DNA from: Siphonodentalium dalli
Lineage: Eukaryota > Mollusca > Scaphopoda > Gadilida > Siphonodentaliidae
Length of the DNA: 64,000 bases
Direction: 5' to 3'
NCBI GenBank assembly: GCA_032622095.1
Contig: CP136068.1
Coordinates: forward strand, 49,718,443 to 49,782,442
This document shows positions 14,590 through 56,567 of this stretch, one piece after another. A model generated the notes under the pieces. It was not told the origin of the DNA and ran no database searches. It saw only the letters and a list, made by a program, of their open reading frames with translations. How positions within the stretch are numbered: position 1 is the stretch's first letter; each line of letters begins with the position of its first letter. The position numbers and the translations under genes are program-made.

Positions 14590-15829
14590 TCACATACGTA
14601 GCTGGGTGGTTTTCGCAATATCCTCAAATTTTAAAAACAAATTATAAACCTCGGTAGATGACAGATCTAATCGAACAAAACTATCTAAGTATTTTGACAT
14701 CAATGGTAGATTTTCGGTGAAGTGTAAAGCTCTGCTTATCATGCTGAACTGATGAAGCTCTGAATAGCGTTCTGCACTTAATGGAATACTTCTCAGGGTG
14801 TCAAGTGTTTCCAAATTGTGACGCAGTATCTCCTTGATTCCTGTTTCTCTGCCAAATTTATTCCAATCTATAATATCTTTTATGTCACTTTTTTGCAATT
14901 GCCAATCATTTATTTCCACCTCCAAGTTGGTTTTCGCAATACCCTTAAACTTTTTAAACAAAGTATCAACCTCGGTAGATGACAGATCTAATCGAACAAA
15001 ACTATCTAAGTATTGTGCCATGAGTGTTAGGTTTTCAGTGAAGCGTAACATCTTGCTTTTCATGCTGAACTCATGAAGCTCTGAATAGTGTTCTACACTC
15101 AATGGAATCATTCTCAGAGTGTCAAGTGTTTCCAAATTATGCTGCAATTTCTCCTTGATCCCTGTTTCCCTGCTAAATGTATTCCACTCTATAATCTCTT
15201 TTATGTCACTTTTTTGCAATTGACAATCTTTCACTGTATCGAATCTATCGATTATGTTCACATATAATTCCACTTTTTTCGCAAAGTTGATAAAATGTTC
15301 ATTTCTCATCAAATTCCTCAAGAAAGTGATATTCTGTTCCTCAAGAATAATGTTATTCATATCTCGACTCAGCAAAATTAGATCCTCGAAGTGCTGCTGA
15401 TTTAAACCTTTTCCTTTGACCATGTTAACCACACCAAGAATATCACCTTTTTCTTCTTCACTAAACTGCATGGGATGTTCGGGATGACCCGGCCTCTCAG
15501 TTAACATAATGTCCAATCGGCCATTAACCAATTTATCAGTTTGCCCGAGAACTTCATCCCTAATTCCATTGATCTGACCTCTAATATTTTCATTGTGTTC
15601 CTTGTGACTCTTTTCCAGTGTCTCACTAAATTTTCTTTCTAGAATATTTTCCCTGTGTAAAGCATCATTCACAGACTTCGAAGTTCTATCATCAAAAGTT
15701 CTTCTTATTTCAGAATCCCTGGCAGCTAAGAGGTTCTGGAGGCACGTTCCTGATTCGAGGTCAGAATCACCACAGACAGCACGGAATGTCTTCTCTAAAT
15801 TATCCAGTCTCGAGGCATGAGGATTGAAA
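14590..15829 (-). CDS. Unidentified exon encoding about 413 residues with a duplicated 98-residue module
   Basis: This is the longest open frame in the window. No ATG opens it: at its upstream edge a TTTTCTTTTTTCAG acceptor ends at 15830, so it is probably a terminal exon beginning at 15829, with the earlier exons missing or upstream. Residues of the open frame (numbered from 15846) fall into a charged, coiled-coil-like part (about 10-110, rich in Glu, Lys, Arg and Asn), a middle helical part, and two direct repeats at 209-306 and 316-413. Each repeat starts QLQKSDIK, contains IPLS, YSELH.FSM and YLDSFVRLDLSSTEV, and ends IAKT. Residues about 176-206 look like a worn half copy. The frame ends QLRM-stop. 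I do not recognise the family. The clean frame and two conserved copies argue for recent selection; expression is unproven. Confidence 0.6.
14608..15222 (-). repeat. Two direct copies of a 321-bp coding module
   Basis: The copies are at 15222-14929 and 14901-14608, offset 107 codons, inside the unidentified exon. They remain in frame with each other and differ mostly by substitutions. Confidence 0.9.
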
Positions 15830-15924
15830 CTGAAAAAAGAAAACAATCTTCTCTAAATTATCCCGCCTCAAGGCATAAGGATTGATTCTGAAAAAAGAAA
15901 ACGGTCTTCTAAAAGAATTTTTGT

Positions 15925-38199: not shown

Positions 38200-41100
38200 A
38201 TGAGTCAGGGGCAGATGGCAAAAAGCAAAAGGAAATCATCACTCCCAGCTCGTAAATCTCCCGACTCCGAGTTAGAGTCTGAATCAAGAATTGTTCCCGT
38301 CCATACGTCGACGCCTGCTCACCGAACTGCCCTGCCAGGTCAGCCCCGACGACGATTAGTACAGTCACCACAGCAACAGTCACCACAGCAACAGACGCCA
38401 CAGCAGTCGATAAATAATAATGGTGAGTCAACAGTATCATTAGCCGTGATCGATTATTGTATGGATTATCTGATTCAGTCACAATTCGATCGATTATTGT
38501 ATGGATTCTCCTATTCAGTCACAACTTGATTGATTAGTGTATGGATTCTCTGATTCAGTCACAACTCGATTGATTATTGTATGGATTCTCTGATTCAGTC
38601 ACAACTCGATCAATTATTGTATGGATTCTCCTATTCAGTCATAACTCGATCGATTATTGTATGGATTCTCCTATTCAGTCACAACTCGATTGATTATTGT
38701 ATGGATTCTCTGATTCAGTCACAACTCGATCGATTATTGTATGGATTCTCTGATTCAGTCACAACTCGATCGATTATTGTATGGATTCTCCTATTCAGTC
38801 ACAACTCGATCGATTATTGTATGGATTCTCTGATTCAGTCACAACTCGATCGATTATTGTATGGATTCTCCTATTCAGTCACAACTCGATTGATTATTGT
38901 ATGGATTCTCCTATTCAGTCACAACTCGATTGATTATTGTATGGATTCTCCTATTCAGTCACAACTCGATTGATTATTGTATGCATTCTCTGATTCAGTC
39001 ACAACTTGATTGATTGTTGTATGCATTCTCCTATTCAGTCACAACTCGATTGATTATTGTATCCATTCTCTGATTCAGTCACAACTCGATTGATTATTGT
39101 ATGCATTCTCTGATTCAGTCACAACTTGATTGATTATTGTATGCATTCTCCTATTCAGTCTCTGATTCAGTCACAACTCGATCGATTATTGTATGCATTC
39201 TCTGATTCAGTCACAACTTGATTGATTATTGTATGCATTCTCCTATTCAATCACAACTCGATTGATTATTGTATGCATTCTCTGATTCAGTCACAACTCG
39301 ATTGATTATTGTATGCATTCTCTGATTCAGTCACAACTCGATTGATTATTGTATGGATTCTCCTATTCAGTCACAACTCGATTGATTATTGTATGCATTC
39401 TCTGATTCAGTCACAACTTGATTGATTATTGTATGGATTCTCCTATTCAGTCACAACTTGATTGATTATTGTATGCATTCTCTGATTCAGTCACAACCTG
39501 ATTGATTATTGTATGCATTCTCTGATTCAGTCACAACTTGATTGATTATTGTATGGATTCTCTGATTCAGTCACAACTTGATTGATTATTGTATGCATTC
39601 TCTGATTCAGTCACAACTCGATCGATTATTGTATGGATTCTCCTATTCAATCACAACTCGATTGATTATTGTATCCATTCTCTGATTCAGTCACAACTCG
39701 ATTGATTATTGTATGCATTCTCTGATTCAGTCACAACTCGATTGATTATTGTATGGATTCTCCTATTCAGTCACAACTCGATTGATTATTGTATGCATTC
39801 TCTGATTCAGTCACAACTTGATTGATTATTGTATGGATTCTCCTATTCAGTCACAACTTGATTGATTATTGTATGCATTCTCTGATTCAGTCACAACTCG
39901 ATTGATTATTGTATGCATTCTCTGATTCAGTCACAACTTGATTGATTATTGTATGGATTCTCTGATTCAGTCACAACTTGATTGATTATTGTATGCATTC
40001 TCTGATTCAGTCACAACTCGATCGATTATTGTATGGATTCTCCTATTCAATCACAACTCGATTGATTATTGTATCCATTCTCTGATTCAGTCACAACTCG
40101 ATTGATTATTGTATGCATTCTCTGATTCAGTCACAACTCGATTGATTATTGTATGGATTCTCCTATTCAGTCACAACTCGATTGATTATTGTATGCATTC
40201 TCTGATTCAGTCACAACTTGATTGATTATTGTATGGATTCTCCTATTCAGTCACAACTTGATTGATTATTGTATGCATTCTCTGATTCAGTCACAACTCG
40301 ATTGATTATTGTATGCATTCTCTGATTCAGTCACAACTCGATTGATTATTGTATGCATTCTCTGATTCAGTCACAACTTGATTGATTATTGTATGGATTC
40401 TCCTATTCAGTCACAACTCGATTGGTTATTGTATGGATTCTCCTATTCAGTCACAACTCGATTGATTATTGTATGGATTCTCCTATTCAGTCACAACTTG
40501 ATTGATTATTGTATGCATTCTCTGATTCAGTCAAAACTCGATTGATTATTGTATGCATTCTCTGATTCAGTCACAACTCGAATGATTATTGTATGCATTC
40601 TCTGATTCAGTCACAACTCGATTGATTATTGTATGCATTCTCTGATTCAGTCACAACTTGATTGATTATTGTATGCATTCTCTGATTCAGTCACAACTTG
40701 ATTGATTATTGTATGGATTCTCCTATTCAGACACAACTCGATCGATTATTGTATGGATTCTCCTATTCAGTCACAACTTGATTGATTATTGTATGGATTC
40801 TCCTATTCAGTCACAACTTGATTGATTATTGTATGCATTCTCCTATTCAGTCACAACTTGATTGATTATTGTATGCATTCTCCTATTCAGTCACAACTTG
40901 ATTGATTATTGTATGGATTCTCCTATTCAGTCACAACTCAATTGATTATTGTATGCATTCTCTGATTCAGTCACAACTTGATTTATTATTGTATGGATTC
41001 TCCTATTCAGTCACAACTCAATTGATTATTGTATGCATTCTCTGATTCAGTCACAACTTGATTGATTATTGTATGGATTCTCCTATTCAGTCACAACTCA

Positions 41101-44100
41101 ATTGATTATTGTATGCATTCTCTGATTCAGTCACAACTCGATCGATTATTGTATGGATTCTCTGATTCAGTCACAACTCTATTGATTTTTCAATGTCTCC
41201 AAATCTGTCACAAAATATGGACAATGGAGTGGTCTATTTTTCATTTGTAGGGATGCTCAGATCATATAAATTACAACAAATAAACTTATGCCTTTATAGT
41301 ACAGACCCTAGTGACATTGCCACTAGTGTACAGAGCGAGAGGTCGCATATCTAGGTCCGTGCAAAATGTTGTGATGGTCAGCAAGGAAACATTTGCGTGA
41401 TAAAGAAGTACAGGCAGTACAGTAATGCCCTAAGTAATCGACTCCTTAACCAAAGCAGAATTATGGGTAATTTTTCAGGATTTAGTCGGAAATATGGCTT
41501 GTTGCCATTCATCGGAAAGCTCTCACATTAGGGGAATTACTGTACCAGGCTCCAAACTTGATCCGTGAAATGATTCTTCAACATTCTCGCAGAAAAACTA
41601 CTGAACATAAATTATTGTACATGTCTCTGTTTTTAAACAACATTTGGGTAAAGAATTTAAAATAGGGTTGGTAGGCAAACATCAATCGCGTTTGTTTTGG
41701 CGTAAGTGCTCATTTGTATTGGCCAAATATCTTAATTATTGTCACTAGATCCTCTTTCACATCACAGCTATTACGAGAAAAAAGAGGAGGTTTAGACCTG
41801 GAACTAAAGCCTTGAAAGAGATCCGACACTACCAAGCATCCACAAGTCTTCTGCTAAGGAAACTCCCGTTTTCTCGATTGGTATGTATCTCAATATAATT
41901 AACACACATTATTAGAAAGCGAGCAGAGTAAAAGTAATCTTGTCCAAGCCTGCAAATAGTGTGTCTGTCATTTGCAGAATGAGGTCCCCAGACTGTGAAT
42001 TTAGTGACGATATCCGCATAGCGGGCTAGCATCACTAAACTCACCCTCTGGGGACCTCATTCTGCTTAGGCCCTCAACTGCTATGGTAGGACTAGGATCA
42101 GATTGAAGTTCCCTAGTTGAAGTTGGTGATGTTCACCAATTGGGCACCTCGATTATGTATTTTATCTGCTGCAAATTAGGGGATATAGAAACTTCACAGA
42201 ATGGAAAACTAAAAACAATGTTAATTTGATACTCTAGATAGTTCCCAGAAGATGAGGCCTAAGCAGAATGAGGTCTCCAGAGGGTGAATTTGGTGATGCT
42301 AGCCCACTGTGCGGGATAGCATCACTAAATTCACCCTCTGGGGACCTCATTCTGCAAATGACAGGCCTGCTATTTGCAGGCTTGATCTTGTCCAAGGGTT
42401 ACAAATTGACACAAGATTTTAACTTTATACTTTCGACAGTCACGCCTTAATCTGACCAAGTCACTGTTGGGAGAAACTCAATAATCCACCAGTGTGCTGC
42501 AAACTCATCTCGATGTGTTGACATTCAAGACAAGTCTGACACACAAACTACTAGAACATGCAGCTCCCATAACTCCACCAAAATATACGGATCTGGCCAG
42601 TTTTCGAACTCGATCAAGACATTGTTGAGCAAGTCTCATATACCGAATATCAACAATACATGTAGTTGATCAGCCCACATAATTGGCGATGGCAATCAGC
42701 AATGACGAAGTTATTTGCTGAAGCAAACTGGGCCACTATAAAGGGTTGCCATAGTTACAATTAATGTATTTTCAAACCAAACCCATGCGTGGCATAGCTA
42801 TTGAAACTCGACCTCGCATGCTCTGATGCGATTCTTGTACTTATAAAATACAGGTTGGAACTACATATTAGTGGAGCGGACGGAACCAATTTCAGAAAGT
42901 TTAGTCCATCGGGATCACACACAAGCTTGTGATACATCATTTTGAAGGTTGTGACATTCCGCAGCGGGTAGGACCCGGTGTGAAATATACAAACTATGCA
43001 AAAGATGATTTTTAGCGGATTAAGTGCCAAAATTCAGCCAAAATCCCTGTTTTTGTAAAATGCGGCAAAATGAGAAATAAAAGTATAGAAACGCGAATAT
43101 TTTGCGAATAGTCTACATACCTCTAGATATTTACTACGATAGTGTTACGATTTCTCTGATATAATGAAGATTGTTTTTAGATTTATTATAAAAATAGACA
43201 AAACAGCGCAATTTTTAAAAAATTTTGCCTCACTTAATGGGCGATAGATCAATATTGTTTTGACCACGGATATCGTATATGGTCTAGAAAAGTGCAGATA
43301 TATATACCGCATACGACAATATGCTGAATATGTCATTATATTTAACACGTGCTGTGTTATATAAGATTATTTCAACCCTCACCCCAAAATTCATCAAAAA
43401 GTCACTGTTTTAGGGGAATTCGGCACAAATGAATACAAAAGCACAGGTATTCGGGATATTTTTGTGCTACGATATAGCAAGTTACATACTTATAAATTCA
43501 AAGTATTGAAATTCCATGATTGCAGTGATAAATGTAAAAATTTCTAAAATTTACTTGGAAAATAGACAAAAAATCATTCATTTTCAGTTGTTTCGCCCCT
43601 CTTAATAGGCGATTATTCAATATTGCATTGAATGGAGATCCCGTAATCTAGAAACTTGTGGAAATATATACTGCATATGATTGTAGGGCAAAGATGTCAG
43701 TCTGTGTCATAGATGCTATGTGGTGGTAGATTGTGTCAACCCCACCCCAAAATTCAGAAGAAAAAAAATCAGTTTTAGAAATTTCTGTATGGCAGAATAC
43801 AAAAGCACAACAACTCTGATTATTTTGTGCTATTATATTGGAGTCTACCCACTTCGAGATATACATTGTGATAACGCCATGGTATCATTTACAAATGGCA
43901 ATATTTCGGAGTGTTCTTGTGAAAGTAATCCGAAAATCGTGATATTTAAACTTGTTTTGTCCCTCTGCATGGGTGATAATTCAAATCCATTTTGAACAAT
44001 AATCCAGGACAAACTCTCAAGAGTTGACGAGACACATAATGCATATGAATGTTGTCGGATTGTATCATCTTCTGTCGCATTTGTTTGGTTATGTTATTGC

Positions 44101-47100
44101 ACCCCTCGCTCAAATAATACAATACATCGCAAGATGAGACAAACACGGCATATTCCTATATACATTTATGCATTATACACACACCTTATCAAGCTGATAC
44201 GTTTGATAGTTACTTGAGTTGAAGAAATTACATCATTGTATGTTTTCTTCGCATAATATAGCTTCACAGTTGTATAAGATTATACGTATTGGGAGGTTTA
44301 GTGATTGTTAATAGCCAGGTTCAGCCACACGTACATGTAACTTGTAACGTGTGTTGTCATTGCCAACGAAATCACCTGACTTTACATGACCATTCCGCAT
44401 ACACGTACACCATCAAACAACCGTTTAGTCGTTTTGTGTCAAATGTGCAGCATTGCGAAATGTGTATCAGTGTCAATCGACGAACCTGTTCTTAGTGAAC
44501 TTTTGTCAAATTCGTCAGCAGCGGCGACCACGCCGTTACTTTTCCCAAAAGGGTTGTTGGTACGACTTCCTTTACATATCGTAGGTCGTCTGCACCCTGG
44601 AACCGGTGAAAGCAAAAGTTTGTTTGTATCTGGGTGCAGAAATGTTATCCAATGCGGGCGCATAGCCTACTGTTCTTCGGTACACATGGATGGTTTTTAA
44701 CGTCCAATGGGCATGAACTGCCCACGAGACGGCACAGCCATTAACGTGAGCTCGCGATCTCATCACATCTAGTCATGGCTCAACCCTGCAAGTTGACCGA
44801 AGGGGTTGTGTTTGGAATGAACCTGCATCCACCTGGGACTCGATGTTTCCCACAAGGGCTGCCACTTCCCTTTAATCATATAATAGAATATTTGTTTTAC
44901 ATCAAGAATGCTGTACAAACAGTATAAACACTCTTTCTGTGGCTCTCCTATCTGGGAGTCATCATCCACGATTTTGCCCTATGGGGACTTCCCACAGTAT
45001 TTGGGGTTTTGATGCGTCACAACCTTCTTGGTCACAGCCATCAAATCGAGCCTTGTCATCAACCTTGTGATGCTCTTTAATTCTATCTATCGTCCTGGAA
45101 TCTCCCTTGGGGTACCCATGTCGCCTTTTCTGGGCTGGGCCATATTTCTTGGAATATGATGAGGAACAGATGCCGTAATATCTCCAAGGCCTTGATCATT
45201 ACATGTCAAATTTCTCTGACCTTGTATGTCTGTCAATGTGTCAGGAAGAATATATTGGGTTTCCCTTCAAGATAGGGTGGTTTTGGTTCAGCTCTTTGGA
45301 ACTCATCCCCATTGCTTATGGTAGCAGAAACTACTGCTGTATTCCCATGTGATCATGGATACCCATAATAGGTTCGGTAAACTTTCTGAGCATTTGTGAA
45401 TTTTCAGAACGTCCAGGAGTCACATGGCATATTCTGCCAATATCTGTGTTCTCTCCCATAGCTGGTGCCTTATCCACTATCTCACATTCTGCTGCACCAT
45501 GGTAATCTATTTTGATTCCATTTATTGTCTCCAAATCACCATATAGATGGGTATCCAATTTGGGTTTATCTTCCGATAAGTAGTCATACAGTTTCTTTGA
45601 GAGCATGGAAACTGTTGCTCCAGGCCTCCAGTACCAATCAAAAACCTCACTGGCTGCCCATAGAGATTGCAATCTAAATACAGGCCTCCCTTTTCAGAAG
45701 AGCTGTATCTAACAAACTACTTGGAGTTACGATGTCCACTTGTATTCTGCTGGTCTCCCCTACCACGATAGGCATTAGGACACACGTCGCGTGGATTGTG
45801 AGAAGTTCTGCATCTGGTGCGTTCTTTGTATTCATTGTGTTATAATCAGGACTATCATTATAATTCTGTCCCCATTGTCTATCGTCACGACAGTCCCTCC
45901 AGGACTCATTTGTGTTACTCTTTTTCTCCTTGTTTTGGTTTTGTCATTCTTTGTTTAATCTCCCCATTACTCCTCTTCACATCAGTCAACATTTGTTTTA
46001 TCTCCTTCATCTCAACGATGGACTGTGGTGTTTGGGACGGTTGTGAGCTATCCTGAGTTTTCCCATTAGAGCCAGTTTGGGGCTTCAGTTGATATATTAT
46101 CTTTTTGATTTCTTCAAACTCTATATTTTTGCTTTGTGTTGGGCTGCTTTACTGCCCTAGCATAGTCTTTAAATAGCCCTATGTTTTCAGACTTGGCAAA
46201 AGCCTCTGATTTAACTGCATGTCTTATGCTCTCACCAAGAGAGCCTGGTCGTGCTCGTTTTACCCTGAGCCGTATATCTGGATCATACAACCCACCAATG
46301 AATTGGTCCTTTGCCAAGGTGTCTCTCAATTCATGTGATGCAGTATGATATGCCATATTGTCCAGACGTTGGATGTTTTGTCCCATTTCAGGTATATAGG
46401 CTCTCTCTTGCCCTTTGTCGTCGTTCACGCAATTATATCATATACAAGTCAGTCTGGTTTTGGCAGCAAATCGGCGTTCTATCGCAGCAACAAGAACGTT
46501 GTAGTCCTCGTCCTGGGAGTAGGTCGCCGAGTATTCCTTGAGCCAATCCTCTCAAAGATGCGCCTAGATAAAGCCCCTTGTCATAAATTTCCTATCCATT
46601 TATTTTGGCACAAATTTCAAAGTGTGCTTGGTAATCTAACCATGATTCTGTGCCATCATAGCTATCTGGTGTTACAAATTGTTTCTGTTTTTCACCGGAT
46701 TTTCTAGGAACATTTCGGTTCGGGTGGTATTTAGCACAATGCATTATACCATGCATGCCTACCGTAAGTTATCATTTGCTGTGTTGGCACTTGACAGCTT
46801 ACGCATAATAACCTACTGCACATATGAATTACGAATAGGGTGCTACAGGTACATCACTAGAATATGTGTTCTTTCTATCAGTTGTCGATTTTCAATATCT
46901 GTAGTTCGCATGCATTCATCTAGTGTACAACTGACAATATTTAACATGTAGACAACACAATTAAATACAAACATAACTATATCACAATACTGTGTGTGGC
47001 AAGAAGATTGAACGCAATGAACAGCACTAATTTCTCCCAAACGGACTCGCAGATGTCACTTCTGTGAAAATGTGTTTAGACCGTACGAAACACATACGAC

Positions 47101-47826
47101 TACACTATAAGCTACTCGTAATTCTTATATGTATAGTAGTTCATTGTGCGAAAGGTGTCCGTATTTATATTTCACTGCACGTTTGATAACTTTACACATA
47201 ATAACCATCGAGATATTTCCTATTTCCTATACACGTGAAGCTATCATGCGAAGGTAACATATGCAAAGCTGCGTTTTCTTCAACTCAAATAACTTTTCAT
47301 CGTCTCACCTTGAGAAGGTATATGTATACTACTTGGATGTATATATATAGTCATATTCCGTGTATTCGTCTCATCTTGCGATTTACTGTATTATTGCATG
47401 GGATAAGGAATACATAAATGTAACCAAACACAGCAACTGCGATAGTTGATGATAATACGCATCAACAGTCATATATACTATATGTCTTGACAACTGTTGA
47501 AATCTTTCCCTATAGATCCCAAATTCTCTGATTTTTTATTTCGTTCTGCCGAATTTCCCCAAAACAGTGACTTTTTGCTGAATTTTGGGGTGAGAGGTGA
47601 AACAATCTTACATAACACATCACGTATTTAATATGTTGACATAAGCAACATGTTGTCTCCGCAGTTGTCTACACTATATTGAAGATCCCAGGTCAAAATA
47701 ATATTGAACTATTCCTGATTAAGTGGGCAAAAAAATTTGAAATTTTGCGTTATTTGGGTCTATTTTTACAAAAAAAATCAGAAATCTTATAAAAGATAGC
47801 GATTTTTCCTTATTTTTGCCGCTTAA

Positions 47827-47864
<38 letters not shown>

Positions 47865-50800
47865 CGGAAAAAAGTGCCATGACAGTAGGCTGAAATTTTT
47901 TTCCCCGCCTCTTGGGTACCCACCACCCCCCTATTTGAAGGAAAAAATATTTTTTACAATTTAATGCGGGGTACCCACCCCCTTTTTACCTCCAAATCCA
48001 GCCAAATCACCCCTTATTCAGGGTTTCCACTATAGCGGCAGGGGATCCCTTTTTGGGCCCCATTCCCCCAGCCAATTTTTCCCCTTTACTTCTCAATTTC
48101 GTTGGGACAGTACTAAGAAATTTAAATAGTTGACAACTTATTTGATTTCTAGAGAGAACACACTCGGACCGATCTAACACGAACTGAGGAAGTGATCAAA
48201 CCGACATCGATAGAACACATGCTTTGGAGTCCGCTAGTTACATTGCTATGGTTAGGTTATAACAAATGACCGCCGGTAATTTAATCATGTTATATTCCGG
48301 TACAATATGCATCCGAACTTTCTGCCGAGTCTTGAATAGTGGCCGTTTAACTTCAACGGGCGTGTTTCCGTATACAGCAATTAATTTTTATCTAATAACT
48401 TTTCTATGTTTTAAAGATATTGCAGTTGATAGCATAGTAACTTAGGTAGAAAATGGATGCAAAACGATCAGCGAATCTACTCTCTGTTTCTTCTATTGGC
48501 CGATAAAACAAAAGTAGGTCCACTAGTGTTTCCACAACATTGAAAATATTGACTGCATTTTCCCCTCGGCAGATACAGGACCCGTTCCCCAAAACCTAGT
48601 GGAAAGCCTGCCTTATTTGACGGAATTTTTTTTCAATTTCATGCAGGGTACCCACCCACGTTTTACCTAAAAATCTGTAGTCTCACAACATATAGGCTTG
48701 GTATTTGTTTCAGTTATAAAGTCTGAGAACAGATAAGAATTGTATAAACCTGCAGCACCCATTGTTATCCTGTTTGTTTTTGTTTATCAATTGACTCATG
48801 ACTTGTAAACAAGTTATATGAACATTTTACCATATTTCCAATGCTTGCCTGTAATCACTTCAAATACAACTGTATCGAAAATATAAAATAAAAATTTAGG
48901 CAAAACATTTATGCTAAATTGTAATGGACCCACACGATCTTATACCATCTGACAACATGGCATTTAACAGATTGATCAGCATTCGTATGGCTTTGATGTG
49001 AAATTGTGTAACAAAAAACAATAAATTAAACTAAAAAATCAAACAAAAGTCTGGATGTGGCTTTAAATTGCATTCAATACTTTCTAGCATGATGAGATTT
49101 CCATGTTTGCCTCTTATGCCGTCTGATCAGGTCTAATGAGTAAACATTAATGATATAAATAAATAGCTTTATTCATTTTTATTTACTTTATTCATGGGTG
49201 TCATAATTGTTCATTTTCATCTTGAACCAGTGGCGTTGGTACTTGACAATGTGATCTGATGCAAAAGACGAAATTGTGAGTGTTGGTTTGTAACCGGGAT
49301 TTCTGAGAAGCATTATGCCTATATTTCACACAAACTACCCCTTAAGCCCTGACCTAAGTGTCATACATACTATAACAATGATGCTGAACACTTTGAGGCA
49401 ATTATATTGCAGAAATGTTGTAAGAGGAAAAAACTGTGACCACTTGGAAAAAAGTGCCTTTTTTCGCGGCTGAACCACCCACCCACCCCGGCCTACTGTA
49501 TGGAAAAAAGTGAATGACCCCCCCCCCTGCTTAAACCTCTCAAAATCATCTTTTGCATTATTTGTATATTTCACACCGGGTCCTATCCGGTGCACAATGT
49601 CATAACCTTCAAAATGATGTATCACAAGCCCGTGTGGTGCCGATGGACTAAACTCCTAATTCTAATGAGCTTTTTGAGTTTGTCCGCTGTACTACTAGTA
49701 TATGGTCAACATTAGGTTTCTGCGAACTGGAATAATAATATGATTTTGTATATTCATTCTCTTTTTGATATTCAAATACTGGAATGTATTCAGTTCAATA
49801 TTCAATCACTTCCGCACAATGTGGTACGAATATGACATGGAAGGAATGTGATTGCCATGCAGTAAATTAGCTTTAGATAAAATCTAGAGTTAAGAGTCAT
49901 TTGACTCGTTCAGTGTTTTTTGATCTTATGTTAAATGCATTCGCTTACACGTTCAAGGTTTATATTATTAGGACAATGCATTCTCTTATATATGTGAGGC
50001 TCCCTATGGGAGACTCGTATATAAGAAAATGCATTGGCACAGGGTTTTCGCAAAATTTCAGGAAGCTCCAGTCATGGATGGGTTAACTGAAACAAATTAT
50101 TTGCAGGACCCTAGGCAAGCCTTGAAATAGGGTGTGTCATTTGCAGAATGAGGTCCCAGAGGGTGAATTTAGTGATGCTACCCCGCATAGCGGGCTAGCA
50201 TCACCAAATTCACCCTCTGGGGACCTCATTCTGCTTACACCTCAGCAGAATGAGGTTCCCAGAGGGTGAATTTGGTGATGCTAGCCCACTATGTGGGGTA
50301 GCATCACTAAATTCACCCTCTGGGGACCTTATTCTGCAAATGACAGACACCCTATTTCAAGGCTTGACCCTAGGCAGGTCTGATGTCTATTGGTGTCACT
50401 AATTTTCAAAATGTTCTAATCTTAACACACACCGTAGATCAGATACATGTATATTGTTAAGAAATGTGTCATATAAAGAACAAATGAGGTATGATAATTT
50501 CATCTTAATTTTTAAGGAAACTGTCATTGATCATTTCTAATAAACCACATATTGAACAAAGTTAATAGAGTTTGAATGTGAATATCCAATTATATCCAAT
50601 TCATTATTTAATATGAATCGTACGTGACACGTAGTGGAGCAACCACACACAATGTGTCTCAAATTTGCCTTTTTTTTCGGCGACATAACGCTAAGAATAA
50701 TTTATGTAACATCATGCAGTGGTCACGACATGCCAAATTGACAAGACGTGTCGTGGATTGTAGAAATCTTGTCTAGATTCTCGTCATGACTTCTTCATTT

Positions 50801-53800
50801 TTCGTTTTCATTAAGCGAACTAACGAAATTGGTCTAAATGAAATTAATAGACCTAAATCACATGTGAATTCTACTGTGAAGTAGTTACTTTCATTTTTAT
50901 CGCGATGCTTCATGTCCAATTCCGCGTTTTTTTTTTGTTGCAATCTCAACACGGTTGCTAACCGGAAGTCACATGACAATTTCTCCAAAATCTATACCCG
51001 CGATCTTGAAAAATCACTGATGGATATAGAACAAAAATATATGACGTCATTCACCTGCCTTAGGTATAAGCACCCTTGGTGGTTGCTATTATTATTATTT
51101 CCATCAAAACCAATTATCTCATAACACAATGTGATATATTCATCCTTGTTGTCCACAGGTGAGGCAAGTTGCTGAGTCACTAGGCGCCCCTATGTACTGG
51201 AACAGCAGTGCAATCATGGCTCTACAAGAGGTAAGTTGCTGAGTCACTAGGCCAGGATTTCCGTTAGTATGGCTCAGCGTCCGTAGGACGGACTCATTCC
51301 CCTCGCAGATGATCTGTTTGATTCATACATGTACCAAAAGTCAGTAGCAATATGGCATAAAAAATCCGGCTGAAACGGGTGTTCGGGAGTTAAACAGAAT
51401 ACTGTTGGAAAAAACGGGTCAATTGAGCAAAGTGTGTTACCGGTACAGCGTAACCCTTTGAAATCAAAGCTCCAAAACTACAATGTAATGTTTGGTGTGA
51501 ATTGAAATAGCGACGTTATATACAGCGTAATAAATGTTGCGGTAACATCAAAGAATGTCGGACTGCTGAGTACGGATATTTTTTTGCACAGGATTTCTGT
51601 GGTTGAAACTACTCACGCTCGGAGATCCCGCGCTATCGTACGATTACATAATTTGCCGAATTGCTGAGTTAGGCAGAGTAGGGATCAACATACACCAAAA
51701 GGCGGTTCTCCTACCAAAGGTATATACCTCCGAGATCCCGTGCTATCGTACTATTATAATACGGAACCTGTCCCAAATCAGTCTTTATATCGGGAATGCA
51801 TAGTGACAACACCATTCATTTGACCCATATTACATGCATGGAGGATAAACACAAAAAACATACCCCCTGAATGGGAGAATGGGAGAATCCATTCAGTATT
51901 GAAAGGGTTCAAGTATAATTTGTTTATTTCGACATGACTCAGTCACAGACATCGCTGGCATTTGTCAATATATACACATAACCTGTAGAAGAGAATAGAA
52001 AATAGTTTGAAATATTATATCATTACTATCGAATTCATCATTCAATGATTCATGTATATATCGCCAGATGTCAGTGATGATAGCAGTCTGAAGTCGACAG
52101 AAGTCCCAAAGTAACATATACCAATTAGATTGGAAATTACAGAGTACATCCATGCCAGTCCTTCCATGGATAATGGAACAGCCCAACATCAAAAGAACAT
52201 ATGTGATCTGGGATTCTACGGGTTCACCACAAACGCTAAAACAATGGGGGTCCGAAACCAGGGATTAGGGAAATTTCAGAATCGAAAATGCACTGAATGA
52301 TAACGTCTCGCCGCCATATTTTGTCAGCCACTGCTGAGCCGTTTTAGCTAACTAGCCAACCACAAAATCAGCTGTCGTGTCTTCAGGGTCTACAGCATAC
52401 TGACAACGTTTGTCGAAGATTTTTAATTCCCATGCCATGTGCATTCTCAGTGGACTTCAGCCTTCGTCATTCTTATAGAGATACATGTAGGGCAATCTAT
52501 TTATGCACCTGATGGAAAAGATTTGATAAAATTTGAATCAGGAAAGCCATATCAAATCTAATCAGAATAAATATTGTGAATTGTATAGAATCGATTCACT
52601 TGCAGAAATTTCAGTTCATTACAGATGAAAAACAGTTTCTTGCCACTGATTTTCATTGCAACTGAAAGTAAACTGGAAATATTTTGGGAACCATAGGGCT
52701 ATTGAAACTAAAAGGTAGATAAGGGCTGTTCCATTTAAACTTGTGTACCACCCCCGGAAGTCAGCTGAAATTTACCCCACCCACCCAGCAGTTTAATTCA
52801 GTTTAGACCCACCAAGTCCGGCAAAATATGTCTGGTTGTCAACACTGTAACCCGGCACTATACTATTAATAGAAAACAGGAGCACAATCAATAATTAAGG
52901 ATATAAGGCAGATATCTTGTAGTATTAGCATAAGATGTTTTATGCGGAACCTAAGATAAACGTTATGACCAACTTTTATAAACATATTAAAGGGACACAT
53001 ACTAATAACTTTAAGATAAGCCTTACACCAAACTTAGGGAAACTTATTAAAAGGATATATACATGTACTAATAACTTTTATGACTACTCTAATTTTTACC
53101 TATGCAAATTAACAAACAGCTATCCTAATAACAAATATGATACGATATGATACTTGACTTCCAGGGTACTCTACAATTTTTATTTATTACTACTTCCTTT
53201 TTATTTACGACTGGCTAAAACTGCTCTGACGGCAGACTATCTGTTCATCATTAGCATAATATAGCTTCCGGTGAGCAAGGCAGGGTACCTTTTTGCGGGC
53301 CCAGGACACTGGCATCCCCCATTGCTCACTATGATGTGGGCACCATAAAAAACAAAAACAATTAAAAACAAAAACAATTAAAAACAAAAAACAAAAGACA
53401 CCCACCAACAGAAGTGCAATTGATGCCAGACCTCCCACCTATGCATTATTATTTTATCTGACGTCCGGGGGTGGTACACAAGTTTAAATGGAACAGCCCT
53501 AAGATAATTGGTCAAAATCAATGACATATATTAATAATTTTTGAGGTAAGAGCTATCTCTAACATGACAATCAATGACTGTTGGTTGATTTTCCCAGCTG
53601 ATTGTAAAGTACATGTATATTGCACTCATTATCTGCTCAGATTAAGTGGAGATGGGTAATCAATGCCCTATGACTGAGTTAATAATGACTTAAAGCTAGC
53701 TGAAACTATTATACTGTAGAATGCGATATATATACACATTATGAAGTTTGTTAATGAGTTTGTTGATACAGAGCGAGTGCTAGTGCGGAAGGATAGAATG

Positions 53801-56567
53801 AGTGGTGCAGACTCAAGTTTTATCCTTCCATGATGGCACAAGTGTTTATTGCATGTCACCCGTCCTAGAATCCATGCATTAAAAATACAGGCTTACAAGG
53901 TTTATTTAGTGGCATAATGTGAGTGTACCAATATGCAATAAGGTTTATTTCTTTGCGATTCACAGTACAGTTGTGCTTGACATATAAGCCCAATATATGC
54001 TGCCAAAAGTGAAGGAGTTCACTAGCCCAAAATACAGGTCAAGAACAAATTTGGGTTCTGCCCACCAATTTTAGCCAGAGCTATGGCCCTTTGTTGGAAT
54101 TACCACAGGTGTATTTTGCCACGCCCTAGGGATGCTCTGGTTATTTATACACTGAAGCCTTTTATTTCTTTATCTGGCCTTACTGACTGGGGGCGAAATC
54201 GCATAATCGTCCAGTGCGCAATCGCGAGGCTCCTATGCGTTTCCGGCGAGAGAAAGTCTACCATGCCCAGAAATTGAGCTCGGGGAGCATTATTGTGAGA
54301 AGTTTAAATAAGAAAATTATGTTTCCCCCTCAATAAAAGGTCATTATGTATATGTAATGCGGCTCTTGGTCCGCAGGAATCAATAAACCTGAAATTCTTT
54401 ATATTTTTTCCCAACCTCATCATTTCCAGTGCTTTTTACTATGACAAATCCGAAAGCATTCTGAGTGAAGCATGTGCTCAATTTTACTATAATAATCAGT
54501 TTATTGTCATCCTGGTATTGTTTTTAATATTTCCGATCAAAATCATTGTCATGTGGGGATCATAAGTTTGTTAAAACAAGGTTTATAAAATATCACAAAT
54601 TATACGTTGCCTTTGCGATAACAAGCTACATGACGGGTGCGATTTCGATAAAAGTACACCAGTCCCAAATCGTCACCTCAGTGTGCTTTCATGTTCATTT
54701 CATTGCTTCACTGTTTCCATGAATCTATTTTTGCTGATATGAAGGAACGTAGCATCGGGGATATTATCATGGGCTGTATTCCACCCAGGGACGTGGCGAC
54801 AGGGTGGTTTGAGGGGGGTCTAACCCTCCAACTTTGGTCAAAATTTTCAACAGATGGAAATTTCTTGCCTCACACAGCATTTGTTGGAAATTTTACACCA
54901 CTTATAGGTTGAAATTGTTAGTAGGTTGATTTTCCAACAACTAATTATTGGGACATTTGTTATTTTATGAATCGGATGTGTTTGTTGAATATGTGGGGTG
55001 TCTTGGGGGCAACCATACACTACTCTTTGTTCAACCTAAATCAGTAAAGGGCCGAGGACTGGTATGGGTTCGATATATTTGAATCCCTCTGGATGGCGGC
55101 CATGTTGGATTTGGTTGTGGTGTTCGTGTGAAAATAGAGTTTTGCAGCCATCCTACAACACCCTTTATTCAAGTGAAATATTAAAATGTTCAAATAAGGA
55201 ATAGAAGTCACCATTCATCGTATATATATGTTGAGTAAAAGCTGAAAGGGCGGCCATTTCGTAAAAGTGGTGGCCATTATGAATATTTCGACCATTGTGT
55301 TTGGTTTGTCGGAACAAAATCAGTCTTCATAATTGATACACACTGGCCATTCATGCCAAATGTCAGGTTTGCATCATGTGAACAATTCTGTTACTATTTG
55401 ACACTTAGCTGCCTTATATATTTTGCAATGGTAACATCTATATTTGCTGTGCAAAGCACAAAGAGACAAATTTGTGCACAAATTGAAATATTAAATACAA
55501 TGTCATTATGCTGCGCTATAACACCTATAATATACTAAATTTTCGATGAATTATGTGCAATATCAAAATTATTTATCGTGGGTGCGCACTGGAGCTTATC
55601 GTTTTTGCTCGTTTTCGAATTGGAGCCATAAATTTTTTTGCACTGGAGCCACTGTGTGCTTGCCTTTTAATGTGCCACGTGTAGGCCCGTTCAGATTTTT
55701 TTTGTATATGTTTGCATTTTCGTACCCCAGAGATAACAAACTTACCAGAAAACTATGGTTTGCCCGTTGCAATGTCCCATTTCTGGTCTAAAAACAAACT
55801 TTAACGCCGAAGATTACGGTAAAGTGTTGAAAACGAAGTGATAAACTCCTGATTGTTCAATCTTCTGTGAGCGCTACAAGTAAAATTCAACACACACGGA
55901 TACAGGCGGTGATATTGAAAAATTACAATTCAATTTTGATATATTTGGATCTTTAAGAAAATGCTTACCGTTTAAAGTGCCGTCACGCTAATTTTTATAA
56001 AATTGCAGAGAGGGCAACTTAGCATTTATTGATGCTCAATGGACGATTATGCGATTTCGGACGGATTTTGCAGGAGCGGTGGGCCCCAGTGTTGCTGTGA
56101 TGTACGTGTGTTCCAAGACAAATATCATTGTCTGTTATTTGCAGAATGAAGTCCCCAGAGGGTGAATTTGGTGATGTTAGCCTGCTGTGTGGGATAGCTT
56201 CACTTAATTCACCTTCTGGAGACATCATTCTCCAAATGACAGACACACTATTTGCAGACTTGTTTCCTCTCCTGTGATTAATAAGATGGTGCTAATACGA
56301 TTACATTTTGCAGGCATGTTTCTTCTCCCAGCTTCTCCTATGATTAATAAGATGGTGCTAATATGATTACATTTTGCTGGCATGTTTCTTCTATGATTTC
56401 TAAACTCAACCATTTTTGTTCTATTTCAGGCATCGGAAGCATATTTGGTACATTTATTTGAGGACTCCCAACTATGTGCCATACACGCTAACCGTGTCAC
56501 ACTAATGGTAAAGGATTTATGGCTCGCAATGCGCTTAAGAGGCGAAACCATGAAGTCATTGTTATAG
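38200..56567 (+). CDS. cenH3: Centromeric histone H3 variant (CENP-A/CenH3), whole gene, 4 coding exons
   Basis: This is the gene-level entry; coding exons are 38215-38422, 41768-41880, 51159-51230 and 56430-56567. CENP-A replaces H3 in centromeric nucleosomes and marks the kinetochore site. Joined exons give 176 residues from the ATG at 38215, or 181 from the in-frame ATG at 38200. Residues 1-69 are a basic Ser/Pro/Gln tail, residues 70-107 carry the alpha-N helix and most of alpha-1, 108-131 the end of alpha-1, loop 1 and the start of alpha-2, and 132-176 the rest of alpha-2, loop 2, alpha-3 and a short tail. CENP-A-like points are the divergent tail, PFSRL, a Trp at the place of human W86, and LVHLFED. 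Alpha-2 is otherwise close to canonical H3, including the cysteine of LCAIHA. The frame is open and all junctions fit in phase. A divergent H3 variant that is not centromeric is the main alternative. Confidence 0.86.
38215..38422 (+). CDS. cenH3: cenH3 coding exon 1 (N-terminal tail)
   Basis: This exon encodes 69 residues plus the first base of the next codon. The tail begins MAKSKRKSS, faintly like the H3 start but without the ARTKQTARKS motif. It contains KSP, QSP and QTP sites suited to proline-directed kinases, an RRR cluster and a glutamine-rich QQQ repeat, and ends in NNN. The donor is GTGAGT at 38423. An acceptor-like pyrimidine tract and CAG end at 38196, three bases before an in-frame ATG at 38200, so a 5' UTR exon probably lies upstream. 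The start could be 38200 (MSQGQ...) or 38215; I prefer 38215 because MAK resembles the MAR start of H3. Another in-frame ATG at 38173 would lie inside the predicted intron. Confidence 0.8.
38448..41190 (+). repeat. 40-bp minisatellite filling most of cenH3 intron 1
   Basis: About 68 head-to-tail copies of a 40-base unit start 25 bases after the exon 1 donor. Units differ mainly at two places: GGATTCTCCTATTCAG versus GCATTCTCTGATTCAG, and CTCGATCGATT versus CTTGATTGATT. One extra 10-base insertion near 39160 shifts the register. Three blocks of ten units (39201-39600, 39601-40000, 40001-40400) share the same order of variants, so the array has a 400-bp higher-order period. Because 40 is not a multiple of three, chance open frames such as 38581-38973 cross the array with a 40-residue period; I do not treat these as proteins. 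Confidence 0.97.
41420..41542. mobile_element. CAGTAATGCCC MITE, truncated, in cenH3 intron 1
   Basis: The left arm runs from CAGTAATGCCCTAAGTAATC to GGAAAGCTCTC; the right arm is reduced to TTAGGGGAATTACTG. TA flanks both ends. It is about 225 bases upstream of exon 2. Confidence 0.78.
41768..41880 (+). CDS. cenH3: cenH3 coding exon 2 (alpha-N and alpha-1)
   Basis: The acceptor is ...CACATCACAG at 41767 and the donor is GTATGT at 41881. The first two bases complete an Ala codon with the G left from exon 1. The exon then encodes 37 residues that align without gaps to H3: [19 protein letters not shown] followed by a lysine-less alpha-1 start and [22 protein letters not shown] and LLIRKLPF are hallmarks of the H3 family. 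PFSRL, not PFQRL, is the form found in CENP-A. The exon ends in phase 0. A truncated TA-flanked MITE lies just upstream at 41420-41542. Confidence 0.92.
41945..42384. mobile_element. hAT-like MITE with 8-bp target duplication, cenH3 intron 2
   Basis: The direct repeat ATCTTGTC flanks both sides (41937-41944 and 42385-42392). The ends are CAAGCCTGCAAATAG and CTATTTGCAGGCTTG. Inside are two smaller palindromes of AGAATGAGGTC...GACCTCATTCT, so it is a palindrome of palindromes. An 8-bp duplication with CA..TG ends indicates the hAT superfamily. Confidence 0.88.
43015..44120. repeat. Three diverged tandem units of about 370 bp
   Basis: Landmarks CAACCC(T/C)(C/A)CCCCAAAATTCA at 43372 and 43737 and AATACAAAAGCACA at 43434 and 43797 recur at about 365-base spacing, with GATAGATC/GATTATTCAA-like blocks between. 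The third unit is the most worn. Confidence 0.6.
45331..46705 (-). mobile_element. Dead Ty3/gypsy-type gag and protease fragment in cenH3 intron 2
   Basis: The minus strand from about 46705 reads a gag-like stretch ([21 protein letters not shown], with an in-frame stop soon after), [10 protein letters not shown], and then after frame breaks [21 protein letters not shown], the pattern of gypsy-type gag proteins of invertebrates. Further on (45672-45331) is a retropepsin-like block, [15 protein letters not shown]. The catalytic Asp-Thr-Gly is lost: the equivalent bases read IGTG with a one-base shift. Reverse transcriptase, integrase and LTRs were not found. It is nested in a larger inverted-repeat element and opposite in strand to cenH3. 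Confidence 0.75.
47830..47863. repeat. Homopolymer of 34 G, cenH3 intron 2
   Basis: An uninterrupted G run on the transcribed orientation of cenH3, able to form a G-quadruplex in the pre-mRNA. Confidence 0.97.
48019..48610. mobile_element. hAT-like element in the nested intron 2 complex
   Basis: The ends are CAGGGTTTCCACTATAG and CCTAGTGGAAAGCCTG. CCTTATT flanks both sides. No transposase frame is present. Confidence 0.75.
49965..50095. mobile_element. TTAA/ATATATGCGAG MITE fragment in cenH3 intron 2
   Basis: One palindrome of TTCTCTTATATATGTGAG is followed by AGCTCCAGTCATGGATGGGTTAA. The left end is lost. Confidence 0.6.
50116..50366. mobile_element. hAT-like MITE with 8-bp target duplication, second copy
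   Basis: ACCCTAGG flanks both sides (50108-50115 and 50367-50374). The ends CAAGCCTTGAAATAGG and the inverse match the element at 41945, and the inner GAATGAGGTCCC palindromes are the same. The copy lacks the central spacer of the longer one. Confidence 0.9.
51159..51230 (+). CDS. cenH3: cenH3 coding exon 3 (loop 1 and start of alpha-2)
   Basis: This 72-base exon is in phase 0 at both ends. The acceptor is TTGTCCACAG at 51158 and the donor GTAAGT at 51231. It encodes 24 residues, [14 protein letters not shown] then [10 protein letters not shown]. Trp sits where human CENP-A has W86 and canonical H3 has Phe. Loop 1 has the length of canonical H3 and lacks the two extra residues usual in CENP-A. 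From memory, the equivalent human exon is 26 codons and is skipped in a known CENPA isoform; a skip here would likewise keep the frame. About 20 bases near the exon start recur immediately after the donor (see findings). Confidence 0.92.
51254..56112. other. cenH3: cenH3 intron 3 body
   Basis: Apart from the inverted-repeat element at 52722-53500 I see no nested gene. Around 55075 there is one GGCGGCCATGTTGGAT word resembling the core of the 160-bp repeat. Confidence 0.5.
52722..53500. mobile_element. Inverted-repeat element AGGGCTGTTCC in cenH3 intron 3
   Basis: AGGGCTGTTCCATTTAAACT and its inverse extend about 40 bases and include GTGTACCACCCCCGG. The interior has an (AAAACAATT)n stretch at 53345-53395. 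No transposase is seen and the target duplication is uncertain. Confidence 0.78.
56113..56261. mobile_element. hAT-like MITE, single-palindrome copy near cenH3 exon 4
   Basis: One AGAATGAAGTCCCCAGAGGG palindrome is flanked by TTATTTGCAG and CTATTTGCAGACTTG. No matching 8-bp duplication is seen. A short duplication of AATAAGATGGTGCTAAT follows at 56280 and 56345. Confidence 0.7.
56430..56567 (+). CDS. cenH3: cenH3 coding exon 4 (alpha-2, loop 2, alpha-3, stop)
   Basis: The acceptor is TTCTATTTCAG at 56429. The exon encodes 45 residues and a TAG at 56565-56567. [12 protein letters not shown] and [11 protein letters not shown] match the H3 alpha-2/loop 2 core. Alpha-3 reads [12 protein letters not shown] where H3 has PKDIQLARRIRG, so a Pro is replaced by Val, a Gln by Trp and an Arg by Met. 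The C-terminus extends past RGE by six residues (TMKSLL). CENP-C reads the C-terminal tail of CENP-A in other animals, so this short hydrophobic end is a candidate contact; that is inference. I could not fix a polyadenylation site. Confidence 0.93.

Follow-up and report, generated by a model that had tools for sequence, protein, structure and literature searches.

Centromeric variants of histone H3 (cenH3) such as CENP-A, Cnp1, Cse4 and CID share the H3 fold with the canonical histone and carry a non-H3 N-terminal tail and an altered C-terminus. In the available parts of two articles they are recognised by a divergent tail, by a loop 1 that exceeds that of H3 in length and by the absence of Gln69, Phe85 and Thr108 (PMC4359364, PMC7598501), whereby the former prints the last position as 118 and the latter as 108, and the accessible part of a third article names loop 1 and the glutamine in the same sense (PMC11633173). 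According to the excerpted text of PMC4359364, these criteria identified CenH3 in every eukaryotic genome examined up to then, and the length of loop 1 serves both as a test for calling a cenH3 and for declaring its loss from a lineage. Regarding function, the accessible sections of PMC7475651 describe the CENP-A targeting domain (CATD), composed of loop 1 and alpha-2, as the element that drives targeting and that HJURP reads. They further state that CENP-N reads a two-residue insertion in loop 1, Arg80-Gly81, and that the C-terminal tail of CENP-A is bound by CENP-C through a hydrophobic contact.

The locus described here lies in a stretch of 64,000 nucleotides, hereafter the window, located at C8:49718443-49782442 in the 2.23-Gb assembly of the scaphopod Siphonodentalium dalli, which consists of nine contigs. 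Reading the sequence directly, we find a gene of four exons and three GT-AG introns that encodes 181 residues with no internal stop (Table 1). Translation from the first ATG at 38200 yields the 181-residue protein, while the next in-frame ATG at 38215 yields the 176 residues given in the preliminary description, whose four small exons over 18 kb and three GT/AG junctions of matching phase were likewise borne out. The donors (TG/gtgagt, TG/gtatgt and AG/gtaagt) all fit the consensus well, and each of the acceptors (catcacag/C, gtccacag/G and tatttcag/G) is preceded by a pyrimidine-rich stretch. Exon 1, which has no homology to other sequences, is placed by its ATG-initiated open frame, its good donor and the right phase. 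Intron 3 interrupts the protein at ALQE/AS, one codon downstream of the ALQ/EA intron found in the H3.3 gene of this genome and in a divergent H3 variant on C6, and the two positions may be related by intron sliding. The minisatellite in intron 1 comprises 68 copies of its unit with 92% matches and fills most of the intron. As it begins 26 bases beyond exon 1, and as the four exons are short and spread over 18 kb, the gene is easily overlooked.

Table 1. Features of the window and of further loci in the genome. Positions refer to the window unless a locus (L) is named, in which case they refer to that region, with its place in the assembly in brackets.
Feature	Positions	Strand	Description
Exon 1	38200..38422	+	N-terminal tail (residues 1-74); ends with the first base of codon 75
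Intron 1	38423..41767	+	Phase 1, GT-AG; contains 40-base minisatellite 38448-41187
Exon 2	41768..41880	+	Alpha-N and alpha-1 as far as LPFSRL; Ser110 codon 41872-41874
Intron 2	41881..51158	+	Phase 0, GT-AG
Exon 3	51159..51230	+	End of alpha-1, loop 1, start of alpha-2; 72 bases; Trp126 codon 51198-51200
Intron 3	51231..56429	+	Phase 0, GT-AG
Exon 4	56430..56567	+	Remaining alpha-2, alpha-3, C-terminal tail TMKSLL 56547-56564, TAG 56565-56567
G run in intron 2	47830-47863		34 G
Open frames in intron 2	45334-46768	-	Resemble retroelement remains (by eye)
Open frame outside the gene	14593-15852	-	420 residues with internally similar stretches
Two-exon H3 gene	L010 1275-1409 and 4332-4607 (C2:161.24 Mb)		Near-canonical; intron position (RPG/T) differs from that of H3.3
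Divergent H3 variant	L005 4967-5254 and 6403-6537 (C6:174.03 Mb)		MARTKQ tail, H3.3 intron position
Partial relatives near L005	L003 3626-3913; L004 5555-5689		One with a stop codon
Broken H3 copies	L024-L029 (C8:0.009-0.038 Mb and 156.93-156.945 Mb)		Same chromosome bears intact H3 arrays
COX1 frame	L001 130-2892 (C1:108.13 Mb)	-	527 residues, open under the invertebrate mitochondrial code
SANTA exon copies	L016, L022 (C4:236.707-237.030 Mb)		Oppositely oriented, about 0.3 Mb apart

Residues 58-173 of the product match the Pfam Histone model with an E value of 3.7e-38. When the canonical H3 of the same genome was compared to the window by tblastn, the three best matches were exon 4 (66.2 bits), exon 2 (54.7 bits) and exon 3 (27.7 bits), all collinear on the same strand, and the fourth-best match reached 20.8 bits. 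As a control for chance, the window was resampled 40 times with a second-order Markov model, which gave a best match of 22.7 bits. The tail of 74 residues preceding the fold is rich in Ser, Pro and Gln, which make up 44% of residues 1-75, and contains five S/T-P sites; its only likeness to the H3 tail is a short ARKS at residues 17-20, set in LPARKSPDS, which corresponds to the core of the H3 K9 and K27 sites. The complete H3 fold with a non-H3 tail claimed in the preliminary description is thereby confirmed, as are the composition of the tail and its putative proline-directed kinase sites, while the statement that the tail has no K9/K27 context is inexact in view of the ARKS. Replication-coupled H3 genes are intronless array genes with a MARTKQ tail and a 3' stem-loop; the window gene has four exons and a different tail, and a search of the + strand of the window with one consensus pattern for the replication-type 3' stem-loop gave zero matches. 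It also differs from an H3.3-derived gene, for which a MARTKQ tail and a phase-0 intron at ALQ/EA are expected, in its tail and in the position of its intron. An intact gene model with an H3 fold that is neither canonical H3 nor H3.3 is supported.

We compared the protein with five cenH3s, namely human CENP-A, S. pombe Cnp1, S. cerevisiae Cse4, Drosophila CID and the Arabidopsis protein, whose sequence is provisional, the other four being matched by PDB chains. Residue numbers on the H3 scale count the initial Met. All three diagnostic H3 residues are replaced: Gln69 by Ser110 (Q is absent from all five cenH3s), Phe85 by Trp126 (W in four of the five, among them CENP-A, Cnp1 and Cse4) and Thr108 by Ser149 (T is absent from three and kept in two). 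If the last criterion is read literally as position 118, the Thr whose absence it names is retained in the window protein (RVTL). Gly103 is replaced by His144 as in human CENP-A and Cnp1, which the protein also resembles in the stretch LVHLFED, and Pro122 is missing, which also holds for four of the five cenH3s. The alignment further reveals unusual states in alpha-3 (P122V, Q126W and R129M, Met counted), and the C-terminus reads TMKSLL instead of the shorter RA of H3.

Loop 1, by contrast with the cenH3s, has exactly the length found in canonical H3 and H3.3 with 0 extra residues, whereas CENP-A, CID and the Arabidopsis protein carry two, Cse4 three and Cnp1 six; one feature that defines cenH3 is thus absent. 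An insertion concealed by splicing was ruled out, because loop 1 lies wholly inside exon 3. We found no description of a cenH3 with an H3-length loop 1 in the literature searched, a weak negative, as most subscription journals lay outside the reach of this search. Overall identity within the fold is also higher to H3 than to cenH3, with 64 of 100 positions identical to the H3 and 63 of 100 to the H3.3 of the same genome, compared to 44 of 82 for human CENP-A and 57 of 98 for Cnp1, and among the PDB matches all 60 listed of 176 were H3 entries. At the 27 columns where most cenH3s differ from H3, the window protein is cenH3-like in ten, H3-like in nine and different from both in eight. The C6 variant scores nine, nine and nine at the same columns, so these counts fail to separate the two genes and were not counted as support. 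Given the overall likeness to H3 and the even state counts, a cenH3 identity is argued here from the individual diagnostic residues, the tail and the uniqueness of the gene.

This uniqueness was assessed by searching the genome with the window protein (91 matches among 95 scored candidates), with the human CENP-A fold (82 matches among 83 scored candidates) and with Pfam, for which 150 of 520 candidates were scored and at least 68 matches exceeded 150 bits. Seven of these 68 were translated and all proved intronless with MARTKQ tails; the other 61 are taken for H3 copies because of their score and frame only. A total of 20 regions were inspected in two sets of 13 and seven, including every match outside the window below 120 bits in the search with the window protein, and neither a non-H3 tail nor a loop-1 insertion occurred in any of these 20. 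They contained seven intronless H3 genes (L007-L009, L011-L013 and L030) and an H3.3 gene with two coding exons on C5 (L006), so that H3, H3.3 and the window gene have one, two and four coding exons, respectively. Copies that are broken, frame-shifted or partial (L014, L015 and L024-L029) were also found, and those on C8 (L024-L029) explain the low-identity H3 matches in the genome searches. The remaining regions hold a near-canonical H3 gene on C2 (L010), which is split by an intron of its own, and the divergent C6 variant with its two partial relatives (L003-L005; Table 1).

Divergent matches on C8 and C9 were considered as cenH3 and rejected, as the seven regions comprise one intact H3 (L030) and six broken, frame-shifted or partial copies with 79.6-84.7% DNA identity to canonical H3. 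The variant on C6 resembles the window gene in being divergent, containing an intron and having an H3-length loop 1. However, it keeps MARTKQ and Q69, has the H3.3 intron and clusters with the H3s in the tree, and its grouping with cenH3 is rejected (p-AU 0.0126, 0.0223 and 0.0184), for which reasons it was discarded as the true cenH3; it is possibly a fast-evolving H3.3-derived variant. The searches for canonical H3 and further cenH3 copies proposed in the preliminary description found many H3 genes and no second gene of cenH3 type. The window gene is the sole cenH3 candidate found, whereby such searches could miss a very diverged copy with short exons as well as one that falls into an assembly gap. 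Apart from the histones, a COX1 frame was observed on C1, where a nad2-like frame (by eye) adjoins it within the chromosome, indicating either that mitochondrial DNA was inserted recently or that the assembly joined it there.

Trees were calculated for four row sets, which ranged from 8 to 11 rows and from 97 to 100 columns. In all four, the window protein falls on the cenH3 side with supports of 90/92, 86/89, 91/93 and 88/89 (bootstrap 86-91), and the H3s, including the C6 variant where present, stand together on the opposite side. No branch is starred, the cenH3s show no resolved order among themselves, and the rows nearest to the window protein by path length are H3s. Placing the window protein with H3 is not rejected, with p-AU values of 0.115, 0.123, 0.179 and 0.185. 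The tree suggested as a check in the preliminary description came out on the cenH3 side in every row set and left the H3-side placement standing, and we read it as leaning towards cenH3 short of a decision. In the available part of a cnidarian study, CENP-A is not clearly apart from canonical H3 in its tree (PMC5011920).

Judging from the gene's sequence, we interpret it as this animal's probable cenH3 in an unusual loop-1 form, to which we assign a probability of roughly 0.75. The intact gene, the H3 fold, the residue diagnostics, the position as sole candidate, the lean of the tree and a SANTA exon elsewhere in the genome (see below) speak for the CENP-A identity put forward in the preliminary description; the absent loop-1 extension, the closer overall likeness to H3, the failure to reject the H3 side and the lack of CENP-C, CENP-N and Scm3 matches above cut-off speak against it. 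Formal membership in cenH3 must wait, because one defining feature, the longer loop 1, is lacking. The main competitor is a rapidly evolving H3 variant, independent of replication, that functions outside the centromere, for instance in the male germ line, and acquired its CENP-A-like residues by convergence, in which case the true cenH3 would have been missed, lost or be the C6 variant. Such a variant would be consistent with the H3-length loop 1, the 64% fold identity to H3 and the H3-side placement that the trees tolerate, and the C6 gene documents that the genome has another divergent H3 variant. We nevertheless regard it as unlikely, as the tail is wholly unlike that of H3, Ser at 69 is combined with Trp at 85 just as it is in human CENP-A and Cnp1, and the searches with the window protein and the CENP-A fold gave no better cenH3 candidate, the C6 variant being disqualified by its tail, its Gln69, its intron and the tree tests given above.

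The unusual alpha-3 states could also indicate a decaying or unexpressed gene copy. Against such a pseudogene, which we consider highly improbable, stand 181 open codons in four exons and three good in-phase splice pairs, preserved even though over a third of the fold differs from H3, and neither of the two protein searches of the genome revealed an intact paralogue as a possible replacement. Among the 91 genome matches to the window protein, there was no second copy of exon 1 and no processed retrocopy of the gene. The exons are singly short, exon 3 in particular, which might raise the suspicion that unrelated open stretches have been assembled by chance. For the three fold exons this suspicion is practically disproved, as they represent the top three H3 matches in the window, are collinear, keep a consistent phase and have GT-AG borders, and all exceed the maximum of the 40 shuffled windows.

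Possible partners of a cenH3 were sought elsewhere in the genome. M18BP1/KNL2 proteins are described as CENP-A loading factors in the accessible parts of two articles (PMC5245964, PMC12903445). An exon with a SANTA domain, GMEGYWHSSAITDRIDAYHVMTNSGAVYKLSG, scored 29.4 bits as a peptide against a cut-off of 21 bits, and the genome search yielded five matches among 12 candidates, all at or above the cut-off, with a control of 0 of 14. All five lie on C4 in two orientations, those on the minus strand covering the profile part 33-70 and then 70-91. We take SANTA to be a mark of M18BP1/KNL2, and the oppositely oriented copies possibly represent an inverted duplication of an M18BP1/KNL2-like gene. 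A CENP-C-like cupin exon (CENP-C_C) reached 26.3 bits, below the cut-off of 29; its peptide also matches the cupin of mannose-6-phosphate isomerase at 23.4 bits, the control of this search was positive in eight of 14 prokaryotes, and one pattern for the CENP-C motif had no match in the 40 kb around the exon. CENP-N gave no match in an exon-by-exon genome search, a null result that is uninformative because the control was silent everywhere as well, and for Scm3 the best score was 21.6 bits against a cut-off of 24.3 bits, which proves little in an exon-by-exon search. For CENP-T_C, 150 of 228 candidates were scored and histone folds dominate, the best of them reading as H4-like by eye.

If the window gene does encode the animal's cenH3, its product would pair with H4 and take the place of H3 in the nucleosomes of centromeres. 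A dedicated chaperone would distinguish the product from H3 by Ser at 69 and Trp at 85, both of which human CENP-A shares; Ser68 of CENP-A, which corresponds to the Ser at 69 here with Met counted, plays a role in chaperone choice. The hydrophobic C-terminal tail TMKSLL may offer a contact that is read by CENP-C, and the S/T-P sites of the N-terminal tail may be phosphorylated by proline-directed kinases, thereby timing loading or kinetochore assembly. As the two-residue RG insertion is missing, a contact through the RG loop would not form, and recognition should rest on the face of alpha-1 and alpha-2 and the two tails. We lean towards a genuine centromeric H3 with a plain H3-length loop 1, which would lack both the insertion that CENP-N reads and a part of the targeting domain, leaving centromere identity to alpha-1/alpha-2 residues and the tails alone.

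An animal cenH3 gene is in itself ordinary, and the point of interest is the H3-length loop 1. Should this reading be true, a working cenH3 without the extension would mean that the loop-1 test can give false losses, and species of this kind would be mistaken for ones without cenH3 in searches that require loop 1 to be extended. As a natural experiment, the scaphopod gene would then help to show which part of the CENP-A targeting domain is indispensable.
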